A stretch of 53,663 bases of DNA from Pirellulales bacterium (GTDB taxonomy: Bacteria > Planctomycetota > Planctomycetia > Pirellulales > JALHPA01). The stretch is from NCBI GenBank assembly GCA_033762255.1, contig JANRLT010000023.1, positions 1-53,663 of the forward strand, in the 5' to 3' direction. Below, one piece after another: positions 17,190 to 22,565 of this stretch (the stretch's first letter is position 1; the number at the start of each line of letters is the position of its first letter). The notes beneath the pieces were generated by a model. It did no database searches and was not told the DNA's origin. It saw only the letters and a program-made list of their open reading frames with translations. The position numbers and the translations under genes are program-made.

Positions 17190-17468
17190 TCAGGTATTTT
17201 CCCGCGCGGCCAGGATCGCTTGGACCAGTTCTTCCGGCAATTGCGGCAGCGAGGCGGCTGATTGATCGTCGTGGCTGGATTTGACTAATCGTAGCGTGGC
17301 CTGATAACTGTCCAGATAATTCCGGCATGCGGCGCAAATGGCCAGATGCGCGTCAAAAATCGCCTGTTCGGACGCGGGCAATTCCCCATCCAAATAGGCC
17401 AAGAGAAAATCCAGCACCTGTTGGCAGCTACGCTGAGTTCCAAGTTCCCGCAATTCCGCCTGTGTCAT
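17190..17468 (-). CDS. Zinc-binding anti-sigma factor (ZAS/zf-HC2)
   Basis: A soluble protein of 92 residues with the anti-sigma zinc motif HxxxCxxC (His41, Cys45, Cys48) and an upstream Cys15. This is the fold that sequesters ECF sigma factors, and in RsrA-type members releases them when the thiols are oxidised. No membrane segment is visible. Its ATG overlaps the stop codon of the sigma gene (ATGA), so the pair is translationally coupled. The divergent neighbours encode methionine-oxidation defence, which makes an oxidant-sensing role plausible. This role is inferred, not shown. Confidence 0.85.
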   Translation of the reverse strand: MTQAELRELGTQRSCQQVLDFLLAYLDGELPASEQAIFDAHLAICAACRNYLDSYQATLRLVKSSHDDQSAASLPQLPEELVQAILAARENT

Positions 17469-18082
17469 ACCGCTTCCCCCTGAAAGTGCCGGTCCAAAAT
17501 TTCCCGCAAAGCTTGTCGCGCACGGTGCAATCGGGTTTTAACGACCCCCTCGCTAATCATCAGGAGGTCGGCAGTCTCCGCCGTGCTCCGCTCTTCCAGG
17601 TCCCGCAACAGGATCACCGTGCGATAACTCTCGGGCAATTGATCGACCGCCCGCCGTACCAACTGCCGCATTTCAACCGTCACCAATCCATCCAGGCTCG
17701 ACGCATTCCACGCGGGACCGGGATGCAGCCGGTGCCCATCGGGCAAGTATTGCGGCAATAAATCTCCAATCGCCGTCTCGGGATGTCGTTTTTGGCCGCG
17801 CAGTTTCATGAGCGCGGCGTTGACCGCGATCCGGTGCAACCACGTTCCCAATGTTGATTCTGCTTGAAAATTCGCCAACCCCCGAAATGCCGATATAAAT
17901 GCTTCTTGCAACACATCCTGGGCGGTCGATTCGCAATGGATATAACGCCCAATAACCGCTAGCAGCTTTGGTCCGTAGTCGCGCACCAATTCTCCATAAG
18001 CCGTGGCCTCTTGCCGGCGCAGGCGATCCAAAAGTGTTCGTTCAGCTGAGTTGGGGGTTTCACGTGTCGGTGGGGTAGACAT
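17465..18082 (-). CDS. ECF RNA polymerase sigma factor
   Basis: About 205 residues with sigma region 2 (AQDVLQEAFISAFRGLANF and STLGTWLHRIAVNAALMKLR, DNA melting and -10 recognition) and region 4 (LPESYRTVILLRDLEERSTAETADLLMISEGVVKTRLHRAR, a helix-turn-helix for the -35 box), which together define group IV sigma factors. The ATG at 18082 is preferred over one at 18100. It overlaps the anti-sigma gene downstream by four bases. It is transcribed away from the methionine-rich lipoprotein, thioredoxin, msrP and msrQ genes, with about 340 bp between, and is the natural candidate to control them and itself. Confidence 0.92.
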   Translation of the reverse strand: MSTPPTRETPNSAERTLLDRLRRQEATAYGELVRDYGPKLLAVIGRYIHCESTAQDVLQEAFISAFRGLANFQAESTLGTWLHRIAVNAALMKLRGQKRHPETAIGDLLPQYLPDGHRLHPGPAWNASSLDGLVTVEMRQLVRRAVDQLPESYRTVILLRDLEERSTAETADLLMISEGVVKTRLHRARQALREILDRHFQGEAV

Positions 18083-18291
18083 ACCACCACCATAAACCAC
18101 ACCGCCTGAACTGTCTAGCGCGCAAATAACCTCTTCCCACGCTTGCCTGAAGATTGGATGCCGGTCGATAGCCTGGGGTTACACCGTCGCTGATAATTTG
18201 CCGATATCAGGGACTTTCTCCTAAGCCCCAGGGAAAAATTGGGAAATTTGGCGTGAAAGAGCCGCCTTTCGGCGTTCCCGCCCATTTTTTT

Positions 18292-18319
18292 GTAACCCGC
18301 CCCGGCGGTTGGCATCAAA
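18292..18319 (+). promoter_or_regulatory. Candidate ECF-type promoter
   Basis: GTAACC at 18292-18297 resembles the -35 box of several ECF regulons and is followed after 16 bases by ATCAAA. The -35 part is a fair match and the -10 part is weak. It sits about 100 bp before the lipoprotein start, in the divergent region of the sigma/anti-sigma pair. Low confidence, from pattern only. Confidence 0.25.
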
Positions 18320-18331
18320 ACGGACGGAAAA

Positions 18332-18345
18332 GGGACACGTGTCCC
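18332..18345. promoter_or_regulatory. Perfect 14-bp palindrome, possible operator
   Basis: GGGACACGTGTCCC is a perfect 14-bp palindrome centred on CACGTG, lying between the sigma gene and the lipoprotein gene, about 77 bp before the lipoprotein ATG. Its position suits an operator for a dimeric regulator, but no regulator of that kind is encoded nearby. The remainder of the 18083-18421 gap contains no ORF on the plus strand; other inverted repeats are GCCTGGGG/CCCCAGG (18170-18231). Confidence 0.4.
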
Positions 18346-18421
18346 GTTGGCTCAATGGAGGGTGGCTTTTATGTAAAGGCAAACCGCCGAGCCGCAATCA
18401 TTCATTAAGGGTTTTTGGCAC

Positions 18422-18658
18422 ATGCAAGCGTATTTGAAAGTGGTCGCCGTGGTCGGCGTTTTGGCGGGATTGACACTTCCCCTGACGGGCTGCGGCGGCG
18501 GCACCCCCAAGGAAAAAATGGGTGACGGCAAAATGATGGACGGCAAGATGCAGGATGGCAAGATGATGGATGGAAAAATGGGCGATGGCAAGATGGAAGA
18601 TGGCAAGATGATGGACGGGAAAATGGAAGACGGGAAGATGGGCGAGGGGAAGATATAG
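18422..18658 (+). CDS. Methionine-rich pentapeptide-repeat lipoprotein (MXKDX-like)
   Basis: A 78-residue protein with a lipoprotein signal peptide and lipobox LTGC (Cys24). The mature part is almost wholly nine pentapeptides of the form GK-M-x-D (18521-18655), giving 12 Met among about 55 residues. It resembles the MXKDX-repeat family. The 15-bp DNA units differ mainly at synonymous positions (GAC/GAT, GGC/GGA/GGG, AAA/AAG), so the peptide pattern seems to be kept by selection. It precedes the thioredoxin-like, msrP and msrQ genes. By analogy with MrpX of Azospira it may be a sacrificial oxidant scavenger whose Met residues are repaired by MsrP. A metal-binding role is an alternative. Confidence 0.8.
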   Translation: MQAYLKVVAVVGVLAGLTLPLTGCGGGTPKEKMGDGKMMDGKMQDGKMMDGKMGDGKMEDGKMMDGKMEDGKMGEGKI

Positions 18659-18709
18659 TTTGGCGGCAACTTGGGGTCGTATGGTTGATGTCCGTTGTGT
18701 CATCAAGGC

Positions 18710-18744
18710 GTCCCACGCGGTGGCTGTAAGTGGCCGCGTGGGGC
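18710..18744 (+). promoter_or_regulatory. Intercistronic hairpin
   Basis: CCCACGCGG (18712-18720) and CCGCGTGGG (18734-18742) form a perfect 9-bp stem with a 13-nt loop, extendable by a wobble and a G-C pair. It lies between the lipoprotein stop and the thioredoxin-like start. There is no T-run, so it could be an attenuator or an mRNA-stabilising structure that lets the first gene be made in excess. The role is inferred. Confidence 0.4.
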
Positions 18745-18791
18745 ATTTATATATGCCGTTTCCCAGAGTTTTTTCATCAGGAAAATTCGTC

Positions 18792-19418
18792 ATGATGAAT
18801 TCCACGCATGCCTGGCCCACGCCCAAGTGGCGGTTAGGGATCTGGTGTCTGCTGATTTTGCTGGCTGGGGGAGGGATATTGAGTCTGGCTGTTGGAGGGG
18901 GCGAGCAGAAAGAGACAGCCAGTTCCCCGGGATCAGCAACGGTCAAGCCGGAGGAATCGAGCATGGCTCCCGAGCTTACCGGACTGCGTACTTGGTTTAA
19001 CTCCGAACCCCTCGAGCTTCGCAACTTGCGCGGCAAAGTCGTGCTGGTTCACTTTTGGACCTTTGGTTGCATCAACTGCCTGCGCAACCTCCCCCTGTAT
19101 AACCAATGGCAAGCAGACTTTGCCAAGCAGGGCGTGGTCATCATTGGCGTCCATACCCCGGAATTTGACCACGAAGCCGATTCCCAAGCGGTCGCGGAAC
19201 AATTAAAAAAGCACAAAATCGATTACGCCGTGGCGACCGATCCCGATTCTAAGACATGGGATGCGTTTAAGAATCGGTATTGGCCGGCGATTTATGTCAT
19301 TGATCGGCAGGGCCACATCCGCCACCGCTGGGAAGGAGAATTAGAGCATAACCAAGCGGGGGGCGATGGGCAAATTCGGACGTTGGTGGAGCGTCTTTTG
19401 GCCGAACAACCTCGTTAA
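18792..19418 (+). CDS. Membrane-anchored thioredoxin-like protein (TlpA/DipZ-C type)
   Basis: 208 residues from the ATG at 18792 (AGGA ribosome site upstream). A single membrane anchor (about residues 14-36) puts the domain in the periplasm. The redoxin domain has WTFGCINCLRNLP, with a CxxC pair at Cys93 and Cys96. The context matches the redoxin domain found at the C-terminus of DipZ-like proteins (WT.GCINC). A cis-Pro site is present in RYWPAIYVID. It sits between the Met-rich lipoprotein and msrP, so it may supply or handle thiol electrons in the envelope, but its partner is unknown. The frame is open upstream to 18660, without a better start. Confidence 0.85.
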   Translation: MMNSTHAWPTPKWRLGIWCLLILLAGGGILSLAVGGGEQKETASSPGSATVKPEESSMAPELTGLRTWFNSEPLELRNLRGKVVLVHFWTFGCINCLRNLPLYNQWQADFAKQGVVIIGVHTPEFDHEADSQAVAEQLKKHKIDYAVATDPDSKTWDAFKNRYWPAIYVIDRQGHIRHRWEGELEHNQAGGDGQIRTLVERLLAEQPR

Positions 19419-19482
19419 ATCTGGCTCTCATTGTGCAACGCCACCGCGTCCTTTTGCTCTCCCAAATAACAATATCACAACC

Positions 19483-20466
19483 ATGGACAGCACTCGACCC
19501 ATTCCCGGCAGTCAGATCACTTCGGAACGGCTCTATTTCAATCGCCGGGATTTACTGCGGGCGGGTGCCATCGCGGCGACCGCCACCGCGACTGGCTTTG
19601 GTTACCGTTGGCTAAACTCTCCCGGCGGCATGGCTTTAGAATTACCGCCATTGCCCGGTTACACCCCCCGTGCGGCCACGCCCGCGGATTTGGCCAGTGG
19701 TTTTCGCACCACCGAGCCGGCCAACACCCTCATGCACATCACCAACTACAACAACTATTACGAATTCACGACCAATAAAGAGATGGTCTCTTCCAAATCG
19801 ATGAATTTTCGCGCGCGTCCCTGGACATTGCGGGTGGATGGCCTGGTGCATAAGCCGCGAACCTTTGACCTGGATGAACTCTATAAGCTGTTTCCCCCCG
19901 TGGAGCGCGTCTATCGGATGCGCTGTGTCGAAGGGTGGTCGATGGTCATCCCCTGGAACGGCTTTCCCCTGCAACAGTTGCTCAACCTGGTCGAACCGAC
20001 CAGCGCGGCCATGTATGTCGCCTTTGAGACGCTGCTCGATCCCGCGCGCTTTCCGGGCCAGCGGACGATGGTCCTTCCCTGGCCCTATATGGAAGGGCTC
20101 CGCCTGGATGAGGCCATGCATCCGCTCACGCTGATTGCCACGGGTATTTACGGGAAGGAACTCCCCGCCCCCAACGGCGCGCCCCTGCGCTTGGTCGTCC
20201 CCTGGAAATATGGCTTTAAGGGTATCAAGGCAATCTCGCGGATTACCCTGACCGAAATGCAGCCCAAGACCACCTGGAACGAAGCCGCCATGCAAGAATA
20301 CGGCTTTTTGGCCAATGTCAACCCCGCCGTCGATCATCCCCGCTGGAGCCAAGCCACCGAACAACGCCTGGGCGAGGCGGGTCGCAGGCCCACGTTGCCG
20401 TTTAATGGTTACGCGGATCAAGTTGCGGATTTGTACCGGGGTGTGGATTTGCGTCGCTATTTCTAG
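19483..20466 (+). CDS. msrP: Protein-methionine-sulfoxide reductase catalytic subunit MsrP
   Basis: Periplasmic molybdopterin enzyme that reduces methionine sulfoxide in envelope proteins, in both R and S forms in known members. The 327-residue protein starts with a twin-arginine signal (RRDLLRAGAIAATATAT, Arg21-Arg22), as expected for a cofactor-containing Tat substrate. The Mo-coordinating cysteine is Cys148 in MRCVEGWSM. Family motifs TNYNNYYEF, PWTLRVDGL and PWKYGFKGIK are intact. The ATG at 19483 lies 64 bases after the thioredoxin-like gene. Its stop codon coincides with the left end of a MITE-like element, and msrQ follows 170 bases later. Confidence 0.95.
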   Translation: MDSTRPIPGSQITSERLYFNRRDLLRAGAIAATATATGFGYRWLNSPGGMALELPPLPGYTPRAATPADLASGFRTTEPANTLMHITNYNNYYEFTTNKEMVSSKSMNFRARPWTLRVDGLVHKPRTFDLDELYKLFPPVERVYRMRCVEGWSMVIPWNGFPLQQLLNLVEPTSAAMYVAFETLLDPARFPGQRTMVLPWPYMEGLRLDEAMHPLTLIATGIYGKELPAPNGAPLRLVVPWKYGFKGIKAISRITLTEMQPKTTWNEAAMQEYGFLANVNPAVDHPRWSQATEQRLGEAGRRPTLPFNGYADQVADLYRGVDLRRYF

Positions 20467-20588
20467 TGCTCCGTCAGTATTTGGTCTTCGGATGGGTCGT
20501 AAGTCCTTAGCCCACGGTTACAGCGGCAAAAACCCGTGGGTTAGCGCCCAGCGGCTGATCAGTCAACTCGAATCTATTGCTTTGACAA
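20463..20588. mobile_element. MITE-like element, copy 2
   Basis: The left end CTAGTGCTCCGTCAGT overlaps the msrP stop codon. The interior shares with the element at 7857-7991 the sequence AGCCCA..CGGTTA.AGCG.CAAAAACC, then GCGGCTGATCAG, then CTCGAATC and CTTTGACA. The right terminal repeat seems degraded. It contains a strong hairpin (CCCACGG / CCGTGGG). Insertion here would have separated msrP from msrQ and supplied the end of msrP. Confidence 0.5.
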
Positions 20589-20636
20589 GAGACTTTTTTT
20601 ACAAAGTTCCGTGATTTGTTTCTGGAGAAATCGGCA

Positions 20637-22565
20637 ATGTCCGAAATCCGCTTTTTTAAGGGAATGCTGTTAATCAATGCCGCCGTCCCGGCACTATTGC
20701 TGGCTTGGGATGCATGGTGGCGCGATCTGGGGGCCAATCCGGTCAATTTTGCCCTGCGCTCGACGGGACTATTAGCGCTGGTATTTCTCATTCTGACCCT
20801 GGCCATTACGCCATTGGCCCGCCTGACCGGTTGGAAAACACCCATCCCGCTACGGCGCATCCTGGGCGTGTATGCGTTTTTGTACGCCGCCGTGCATTTC
20901 GCGATTTTTGTGGTCTTTGACCGGGACCTAAGTTTGGCCAGCACCGCCAGCGAGATTGCCTCGCGGCTGTATTTGACGATTGGCGCGGCGGGATTACTGG
21001 CAATGCTGCCATTGGCGGTAACCTCGACTAATGGGATGATCCGCCGCCTCGGCCCGCAGCGCTGGAAATTGCTGCACCGGCTGGCGTATGTGGCGGCCAT
21101 CGCGGGAGTGGCGCATTACATCTTGTTGGTCAAAGCCGATCTGGAACAACCGCTAGTCTTTGCGGCGGTATTGGCGGCACTGCTGATTTATCGGCTGGCG
21201 GCGCATTATTGGCAACTACGAAGTTTTTATCATGCCGCGCAGCGGACGGGGCAGGGGGGGGATCATCCTGTCACCATGGCAGCCACATCCGCTGTCTCGA
21301 CAGTCGGCGGCTCCGGGGCGACACAAAATGGGACCGCGGCCGCCTTGTTGGGCAGGGAGGGGCACGAACAAAACACCCCCGCGACCGCGCGCGGAAAAAA
21401 CTGGATGGGCCAACTGACCGTGACCCGCATCTTTCAGGAGACACCGCACGTGCGGACGTTTCGCCTGGCGGGGAATGGGGGTGAACTGCCATTTGATTAT
21501 CTGCCGGGACAGTTCTTGACATTATCGCTCAATATCGACGGCCGTCCGGTCAAGCGATCCTACACGATCGCCTCCAGTCCCACGCGCGGCGCTTATTGCG
21601 AATTAACCGTCAAGCGGGAAGAGCAGGGACTGGTGTCACGGTATTTGCATGAACGCATACAACCTGGGGATGAGCTGACGGTCACCGCCCCGGGGGGAAA
21701 ATTTGTGTTCACCGGCGAGGAAGCCCCGGGAATCGTGCTGATCGCGGGGGGGGTCGGCATCACGCCGCTCATGTCCAAGATTCGCTATCTGACCGATCGA
21801 GCCTGGCCGGGAGAAATCCATTTGATCTATGCGGTGCGCGACGAGTCCGATGTGATCTTTGAAGAGGAATTAGCCTATCTGCAAAAACGCCATGAAAATC
21901 TGCGGGTCTGCGTGACCTTATCCCAAGCGACCAGCGAACTGTGGACTGGCGAACGGGGACGGGTGTCGCTAGAGCTTTTGGAACGCAAAATTCCCCGTTA
22001 TCGCGATTTTCCGCTGCACATTTGCGGACCGGGCGAAATGAACAAGGCGGTCAAGCAACTCTTGTTAGACGCGGGTATCCCGGCCGAGCAGATCCGGCAG
22101 GAATCGTTTGGAGCGGCCAAGGCCAAACCCGCAACCCCCCACGAACCCGCAGAGGCAAGCATGGCGACCGCCCCCGCGACAAACAACACCGCGGGGGGAT
22201 CCCCACGCGGCGTGACGCGGCATGCTGCGCTGGCCGGGTCCATGCCCAATGCCGCGCAGGCGGCGACGACAGCCCCGGCAGCATTGTCTGCCCCGATGGC
22301 CAACCTGGCGCGAATAGAGTTTGCCCGTTCGGGCAAATCGGTCAGTGTGGGTCCGACGACAACGATTCTAGAAGCGGCTGAGCAGATTGGCGTGCCGCTG
22401 GATTATGATTGCCGTTCCGGAGTGTGCGGCACGTGCAAGGTGAAACTGCTGCGCGGCCAGGTGCGGATGGCCAACCGCGACGCCCTGGAACCGAGCGACG
22501 TCGCGGCCAATATCATCCTAGGCTGTCAGGCGGTTTGCCAGGGACCCGTGAGCATCGACGCGTAA
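20637..22565 (+). CDS. msrQ: MsrQ membrane haem subunit fused to FNR reductase and 2Fe-2S ferredoxin
   Basis: 642 residues in three parts. Residues 1-200 are an MsrQ/YedZ-like ferric-reductase membrane domain with candidate haem histidines His87, His147 and His160. Residues about 255-495 form a ferredoxin-NADP reductase-like module: RSYTIAS for FAD, GGVGITP and ICGPGE for NAD(P)H. Residues about 555-642 form a plant-type 2Fe-2S domain with Cys592, Cys597, Cys600 and Cys630. An Ala/Thr/Pro-rich linker precedes the ferredoxin. Classical MsrQ relies on a separate flavin reductase, so this chain could carry electrons from NAD(P)H to MsrP in one polypeptide. The ATG at 20637 follows a GGAG site; the frame opens with TTG at 20616. 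Confidence 0.9.
   Translation: MSEIRFFKGMLLINAAVPALLLAWDAWWRDLGANPVNFALRSTGLLALVFLILTLAITPLARLTGWKTPIPLRRILGVYAFLYAAVHFAIFVVFDRDLSLASTASEIASRLYLTIGAAGLLAMLPLAVTSTNGMIRRLGPQRWKLLHRLAYVAAIAGVAHYILLVKADLEQPLVFAAVLAALLIYRLAAHYWQLRSFYHAAQRTGQGGDHPVTMAATSAVSTVGGSGATQNGTAAALLGREGHEQNTPATARGKNWMGQLTVTRIFQETPHVRTFRLAGNGGELPFDYLPGQFLTLSLNIDGRPVKRSYTIASSPTRGAYCELTVKREEQGLVSRYLHERIQPGDELTVTAPGGKFVFTGEEAPGIVLIAGGVGITPLMSKIRYLTDRAWPGEIHLIYAVRDESDVIFEEELAYLQKRHENLRVCVTLSQATSELWTGERGRVSLELLERKIPRYRDFPLHICGPGEMNKAVKQLLLDAGIPAEQIRQESFGAAKAKPATPHEPAEASMATAPATNNTAGGSPRGVTRHAALAGSMPNAAQAATTAPAALSAPMANLARIEFARSGKSVSVGPTTTILEAAEQIGVPLDYDCRSGVCGTCKVKLLRGQVRMANRDALEPSDVAANIILGCQAVCQGPVSIDA

Follow-up and report, generated by a model that had tools for sequence, protein, structure and literature searches.

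A candidate envelope methionine-oxidation defence in planctomycetes: a Met-rich lipoprotein beside MsrP and a one-piece MsrQ-FNR-ferredoxin protein

In Azospira suillum, the SigF/NrsF sigma/anti-sigma pair reportedly controls the Met-rich peptide MrpX together with YedY1 (MsrP), MrpX acting as a sacrificial methionine sink, as Melnyk is said to have described in 2015. Here we analyse a six-gene set in a 53,663-nucleotide contig of a Pirellulales bacterium (Planctomycetota; GenBank assembly GCA_033762255.1, contig JANRLT010000023.1), the whole of which we call the window. As far as the available accounts of the Azospira system go, the two have in common a sigma factor with its anti-sigma, a Met-rich exported protein and MsrP. 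They differ in that the Met-rich protein of the window is a lipoprotein with DGKM repeats, its anti-sigma is a soluble zinc-type anti-sigma (ZAS) protein and not NrsF, its MsrQ is fused to FNR and ferredoxin domains, and a redoxin is added. The set is confirmed as real and as recurrent beyond the window, and we consider it likely that it forms an oxidant-inducible defence of the cell envelope.

The second close system is that of Brucella, in which BcrS induces bcrXQP on exposure to hypochlorous acid from promoters with a TGTAAC –35 element, the consensus for extracytoplasmic function (ECF) group ECF16 being (T/C)GTAAC-N17-CGAA (PMC8315932). In both the BcrS/AbcS-bcrXQP locus and the window, the sigma operon adjoins the operon of the Met-rich protein and the Msr enzymes, and the promoters carry a TGTAAC –35. 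However, the –10 is CGAA in Brucella and GCATC in the window, which therefore lacks an ECF16 promoter, and where Brucella has a six-helix, NrsF-type AbcS and the MXKDX repeat protein BcrX, the window has a ZAS protein and the DGKM lipoprotein. What the window shares with the MrpX/BcrX-MsrPQ systems is thus a Met-rich exported protein beside msrP/msrQ and orthologues of MsrP and MsrQ; it has neither an NrsF-type membrane anti-sigma nor a member of the MXKDX family TIGR02953. The lipoprotein has no NCBIfam family name and no TIGR02953 match at E 0.1, and among the lipoproteins of seven relatives the best score (35.8 bits, locus L261) is under the cut-off of 41.

Control of methionine sulfoxide reductase by an ECF sigma factor with a small cytoplasmic anti-sigma is known from Neisseria, where SigmaE is paired with MseR, a ZAS protein with RsrA-type Cys spacing (PMC2893595), and from Haemophilus, where RpoE2 is paired with HrsE (PMC7907618). 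The target in both is MsrAB and not MsrP/MsrQ, and a Met-rich scavenger is not mentioned in the portions of these two papers available (PMC2893595, PMC7907618). A first-pass annotation of the window had counted the zinc-thiol anti-sigma among the changes particular to the locus, but MseR already provides a precedent for ZAS control of a methionine sulfoxide reductase. In E. coli, MsrQ is fed by Fre, a member of the FNR family encoded apart from it (PMC11031084); the flow from NADPH through flavin and haem into MsrQ and then MsrP would be the same in the window, but Fre and MsrQ are two proteins in E. coli and one chain with an extra ferredoxin domain in the window. Among the open-licence papers listed by our searches, there was no planctomycete description of the gene set and no precedent for the combination, the lipid anchor or the one-piece electron line. 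The single elements are precedented (MrpX-MsrPQ on one side, ECF/ZAS control of MsrAB on the other), and the recurring planctomycete set is a variant of the MrpX-MsrPQ defence. The view of the locus as a planctomycete relative of that system, in which a lipoprotein replaces the periplasmic peptide and the MsrQ electron line is one protein, is supported.

All six genes of the set at 17190-22565 are present at the positions first given, with revised start codons (Table 1). The best starts, judged by eye, are 18082 for the sigma factor, 18792 for the redoxin, 19483 for MsrP (an ATG, in place of 19366) and 20637 for the fusion; those of the sigma factor, MsrP and the fusion are not those of the longest open reading frames. 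A divergent interval (18083-18421) separates the minus-strand sigma/anti-sigma operon from the plus-strand genes, which run lipoprotein, redoxin, MsrP, MsrQ-FNR-ferredoxin. The motif TGTAACC-N-GCATC occurs twice in the window against 0.02 expected, both times in this interval and once per side. The set is more than a chance neighbourhood, because it is found again in full in a genome of the same order but another family (G021) and its core in other genomes of the class. In G021 all six genes lie inside 8.4 kb, with identities to the window of 56% for the sigma factor, 55% for ZAS, 61% for MsrP, 54% for the fusion and 39% for the redoxin, which comes last there; two insertion elements (IS66-like and IS5-like, named by eye) lie within the set. 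The G021 sigma operon reads toward the cassette and the matching promoter site points away from it, which suggests an inversion. G021 also has a divergent pair of TGTAACC-N-GCATC sites. At locus L329 of this genome (G021:C177:9000-19000), a second sigma paralogue and a 370-residue redoxin stand behind a divergent pair of the same motif. In the window, the next gene is serine hydroxymethyltransferase in opposite orientation, and the palindrome GGGACACGTGTCCC of the lipoprotein leader has a single exact copy in the genome and none in the 5 relatives searched.

Table 1. Features of the six-gene locus, in window coordinates.
Feature	Position	Strand	Basis or remark
ZAS anti-sigma (soluble, zinc-type), 92 aa	17190..17468	-	zf-HC2 and RsrA-like Cys-His-Cys-Cys spacing
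ECF sigma factor, 205 aa	17465..18082	-	Sigma70_r2 and r4_2; overlaps anti-sigma start
ECF-type promoter-like site of the sigma gene, TGTAACC-N15-GCATC	18157..18183	-	pattern search
ECF-type promoter-like site of the lipoprotein-msr operon, TGTAACC-N14-GCATC	18291..18316	+	pattern search
Perfect 14-base palindrome GGGACACGTGTCCC	18332..18345		lipoprotein leader, between promoter site and start codon; seen directly
Met-rich lipoprotein, 78 aa, 8 DGKM copies	18422..18658	+	relatives upstream of MsrP
DipZ-type redoxin, CINC active site, membrane-anchored or exported, 208 aa	18792..19418	+	AhpC-TSA
MsrP, molybdopterin methionine sulfoxide reductase, twin-arginine start	19483..20466	+	PRK05363
MsrQ-FNR-[2Fe-2S] ferredoxin fusion, 642 aa	20637..22565	+	MsrQ model, then FAD_binding_6, NAD_binding_1, Fer2

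Of the 55 residues of the window lipoprotein from the Cys of its lipobox (LTGC, by eye) onward, 12 are Met, 11 Lys and 15 Gly. Clustered methionines can bind Cu(I), and a protein of this kind could instead buffer Cu(I) or Ag(I), with MsrP keeping its methionines competent for metal and the locus being a metal-stress island. An open reading frame that resembles a metal P-type ATPase (by eye) does lie near L340, a locus of genus g211 linked by the promoter motif, and a study of E. coli MsrPQ in copper stress reportedly has the metallochaperone CusF as its main subject (PMC9302797). However, the mature lipoprotein has no His and no Cys beyond the lipobox, zero copper proteins were found among the eight window proteins scanned, and the promoter-linked g211 genes scanned are of other kinds: the motif precedes a carboxymuconolactone-decarboxylase-family gene in L340 and L337 (Pfam 25.7 and 21.9 bits; cut-off 23), followed in L337 by a PNPOx-family gene. 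We regard the metal buffer as rather unlikely.

The distribution of the lipoprotein was followed over 49 planctomycete MsrP loci, made up of all 46 matches stronger than E 1e-130 in the genomes of the order and class (three of them from genome G324 and two from G199), a partial match in G236 and two named loci, L109 and L110. Four of the 49 (L355-L358) are outside every tree, shuffle, residue and sigma count; L134, on the same contig as L236, was counted once; L108, from a Myxococcales metagenome-assembled genome (MAG), is not among the 49; L231 and L270, with <130 bases upstream of MsrP, were kept; and MsrP of L261 is cut by the contig end. Ten loci from weaker MsrP-like matches served as a paralogue control, and the named MsrP loci examined were the best 80 of 578 confirmed. 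At E 1e-50, MsrP is found in 15 of 396 genomes of the order and 90 of 397 of the class, many of which score as a more distant group.

In 21 of the 49 loci (the window, 19 others and L261, none of them L355-L358), MsrP is preceded on its own strand, at a distance of no more than 1.7 kb, by a small Met-rich lipobox lipoprotein, and L261 has the window order lipoprotein-redoxin-MsrP. In L258 the small lipoprotein is 5 kb upstream, whereas L110, L234, L235, L240 and L252 have in its stead, within 5 kb, a Met-rich protein that is large and begins with a signal-like sequence. A uniform filter for Met-rich exported proteins matched 25 of the 44 cassette loci, none of the 10 paralogue loci and 1 of 22 further loci from planctomycetes (L335, with such a protein beside a sigma factor, being excluded from the 22). 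It also matched 8 of the 80 named MsrP loci, L110 sitting in both the cassette and the named set; L355-L358 gave no match and are not in the 44. None of the ten paralogue loci has the small lipoprotein or the fusion, and one (L272) has a 49-residue Met-rich frame with no signal sequence; the weaker MsrP-like loci L067 and L068 (genomes G037 and G049), outside the 49, have neither MsrQ nor a Met-rich lipoprotein. The filter match in the named locus L120 (Anaerolineaceae UBA8523) is a genuine Met-rich lipoprotein. At L120:5618-6304 a Met-rich lipoprotein is continuous with a redoxin-like domain, 3.4 kb from MsrP, an arrangement that is possibly a parallel invention in Chloroflexi.

These counts bear on a second explanation, in which MsrP and MsrQ carry out ordinary envelope repair and the lipoprotein is one substrate of many or a low-complexity surface linker. 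It draws on the 28 of 49 loci in which the 1.7 kb before MsrP hold no lipoprotein of the small Met-rich kind; only two of these loci (L231 and L270) are cut short by a contig end. The same-strand position just upstream of MsrP in the other 21, near absent in controls, argues against it, as do the repeats, which differ between loci while a richness in Met with Lys, Asp, Gly or Ser is retained, and the grouping of the lipoprotein with sigma factor, ZAS and redoxin in genome G429. We think this second explanation distinctly unlikely.

The enzymes themselves are well assigned. Window MsrP, the sole full copy in its genome, scores 436 bits against PRK05363 (cut-off 207) and matches 1xdq at E 2.1e-98 with the Cys of RCVE retained; its twin-arginine motif NRRDLLRAG was recognised by eye, the Pfam TAT_signal score of 14.5 bits being below the cut-off of 22.7. 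The MsrQ part of the fusion reaches 156.8 bits with NF003831 (cut-off 130). Of the 49 loci, 37 carry the fusion: the window, two of L355-L358 and 34 others, which are 36 aligned loci minus the duplicate L134 and the Myxococcales L108. Six of the rest end by contig inside or within 1.4 kb after MsrP (L110, L247, L249, L250, L254, L261); L241, in G236, is a broken or partial copy for which no fusion was counted; L267, L355 and L356 have MsrQ without FNR or ferredoxin; and in L235 (6977-7942) and L240 MsrQ is joined to ferredoxin alone, with no FNR, beside a divergent MsrP. The last two loci also hold a Met- and Cys-rich protein 4.2 kb upstream. Among the best 80 of 578 named MsrP loci, only L108, L109 and L134 carry the fusion. 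In a tree of 126 MsrP rows (quick method), a single clade of 46 rows (SH-aLRT 98) takes in all 37 rows that bear the fusion, leaving none outside it. Across the 37 aligned fusion rows, His87, His147 and His160 of the MsrQ part and Cys592, Cys597, Cys600 and Cys630 of Fer2 are invariant. These His are spaced by 60 and 13, presumably as the haem ligands are in MsrQ of E. coli. A weak structural model from four sequences (pLDDT 64.6, pTM 0.43) begins with helices, after which come regions that resemble FNR and ferredoxin. That the fused protein is an NADPH-oxidase-like (NOX-like) or ferric-reductase-like enzyme beside MsrP by chance is very improbable: it does hold in one chain the FRD and FNR of a NOX core (PMC5676040), but its MsrQ equivalog score is above cut-off, it is confined to one MsrP clade, and in every fusion locus seen it follows MsrP in the same orientation (an insertion element separating the two in G021). 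A different protein at L070:7449-9434 (G038) has FNR and ferredoxin without MsrQ, and its N-terminal part carries GKM repeats after a signal-like start.

On the regulatory side, the expectation of a zf-HC2 anti-sigma in place of NrsF was borne out: zf-HC2 is its sole Pfam match, at 47.3 bits against a gathering cut-off of 22.2, and no membrane stretch is seen by eye. Its Cys15-His41-Cys45-Cys48 has exactly the spacing of RsrA Cys11-His37-Cys41-Cys44 (Cys-N25-His-N3-Cys-N2-Cys), and a Cys stands 26 residues before the His in the window protein and seven of eight homologues, the eighth (G663) being one residue shorter there. RsrA Cys11 is required for redox sensing (PMC4960319). Against the RsrA equivalog TIGR03988 the window protein scores 35.5 bits, under the cut-off of 62.5; its nearest structures are RsiW (E 5.7e-6) and then RsrA (2.3e-4), so score alone does not single out RsrA.

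A close relative of the sigma factor (E below 1e-44, a cut-off chosen post hoc, after a gap had been seen) is present in 12 of 30 author-selected genomes. Physical linkage of it to msr genes was seen only in the window, G021 and G655; in G655 it adjoins MsrP, but the promoter site is a near match and a typical ZAS gene is missing. In G429, sigma factor, ZAS, redoxin and Met-rich lipoprotein form a single gene run far from msrP, and msrP bears the promoter motif; in the other close-sigma genomes, too, the link to msr, where seen, is the common motif. The first-pass annotation held that a lack of conserved linkage would refute it, and this condition is answered in part: lipoprotein and MsrP are neighbours in 21 of 49 loci, and a close sigma factor beside msr genes was seen in those three genomes only. 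When stretches of up to 2.1 kb before MsrP were searched in 44 relatives, the motif, in the shared form TGTAAC(C/T)-N-GCATC, turned up in seven (G021, G663, G429 and, from one genus, G583, G512, G533 and G537); 200 dinucleotide shuffles gave a mean of 0.005, and the four further loci L355-L358 have no such site. In some relatives the site precedes the lipoprotein gene, as in the window. It is present in 8 of 12 genomes with the close sigma and 0 of 18 without, a one-sided Fisher probability of 8e-5 by genome and 0.001 by genus, to be taken with the post hoc cut-off and with genomes that are not phylogenetically independent; if the two genomes that first revealed the motif are left out, the counts are 6 of 10 and 0 of 18. 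A third exact match in the window genome (C65:23309) was rejected as a regulon member, as it lies inside coding-like DNA by eye. In two g211 genomes (L341:3793-4221 and L342:3733-4155), the motif is followed by similar proteins of 142 and 140 residues with a signal-like start and no Pfam family.

The redoxin of the window has a CxNC motif and its nearest PDB match is DipZ (2hyx, E 1.5e-32). DipZ is fused to a CcdA membrane domain, and a Pfam scan of the window protein found no such domain. In the window, L063, L244 and L261 a redoxin is part of the cassette or follows it, and in G429 one is the neighbour of sigma factor and ZAS; weaker redoxin-like matches lie near several other cassettes. Outside planctomycetes, one is directly upstream of MsrP in L120 (a CINC redoxin that is itself a lipoprotein, separate from the Met-rich one) and one downstream of MsrQ in L144, a locus of the proteobacterial MAG Centralia_MAG_52. 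In the latter (L144:10579-11109), TGA replaces the first Cys of CxNC (WTYG-TGA-INC); the genome has a SelB match above cut-off, but the fold downstream of the TGA is unremarkable (z –1.2). This redoxin is a candidate selenoprotein, a sequencing error being possible.

From what is described above (the genes with their domains and conserved residues, their linkage and the promoter motif they share), we infer a trigger, a sigma-promoter pairing, a sink, its recycling and an electron path. In the resting cell, the soluble ZAS protein would keep the ECF sigma factor bound; oxidation of its zinc-site thiols would free the sigma factor to act on its own operon and, through the matching divergent promoter, on the lipoprotein-redoxin-msrP-msrQ operon. 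The lipid-anchored protein would then absorb strong oxidants (hypohalous acids, chlorite or similar) at the membrane as methionine sulfoxide, and MsrP would re-reduce it along with other oxidised envelope proteins. NAD(P)H would supply the electrons, which would reach MsrP by way of the flavin domain of the fusion and then the haems of MsrQ, making a separate reductase unnecessary, the ferredoxin domain offering a second point of electron entry or storage, and the redoxin would reduce envelope thiols or remove peroxide.

Several observations weigh against this reading, besides the lipoprotein-free loci. MseR has the RsrA spacing, yet neither peroxide nor diamide nor singlet oxygen changed transcript levels in its regulon (PMC2893595), a warning by analogy that such spacing is no proof of sigma release on thiol oxidation. 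The motif is non-specific on its own: of the 396 genomes of the order, 115 contain it at some position, with reversed-pattern controls similar genome-wide, and several other g211 matches precede nothing recognisable. Most cassettes have no motif and 18 of the 30 genomes no close sigma, so that other regulators must act there.

We give about even chances to a broader proposal: that a methionine sponge, lipid-anchored and rechargeable, arose in planctomycetes, probably a single time, together with a one-piece transmembrane electron line of its own (NAD(P)H to flavin and iron-sulfur centre to haem to MsrP) and, in some lineages, a cytoplasmic thiol switch, the sponge being replaceable and the recharging enzyme constant. 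The stand-alone MsrQ of L355 and L356 make this proposal slightly less probable than it was before. Larger Met-rich exported proteins may stand in for the small sponge. The methionine-sink idea, demonstrated in Azospira and Brucella, both proteobacteria, would thereby extend to a further phylum, where the anti-sigma is of another type and a single chain supplies the power. Lipoprotein, MsrP and fusion make a small set with which the rechargeability of envelope methionine buffers could be tested, and the fusion would readily explain where MsrQ gets its electrons.

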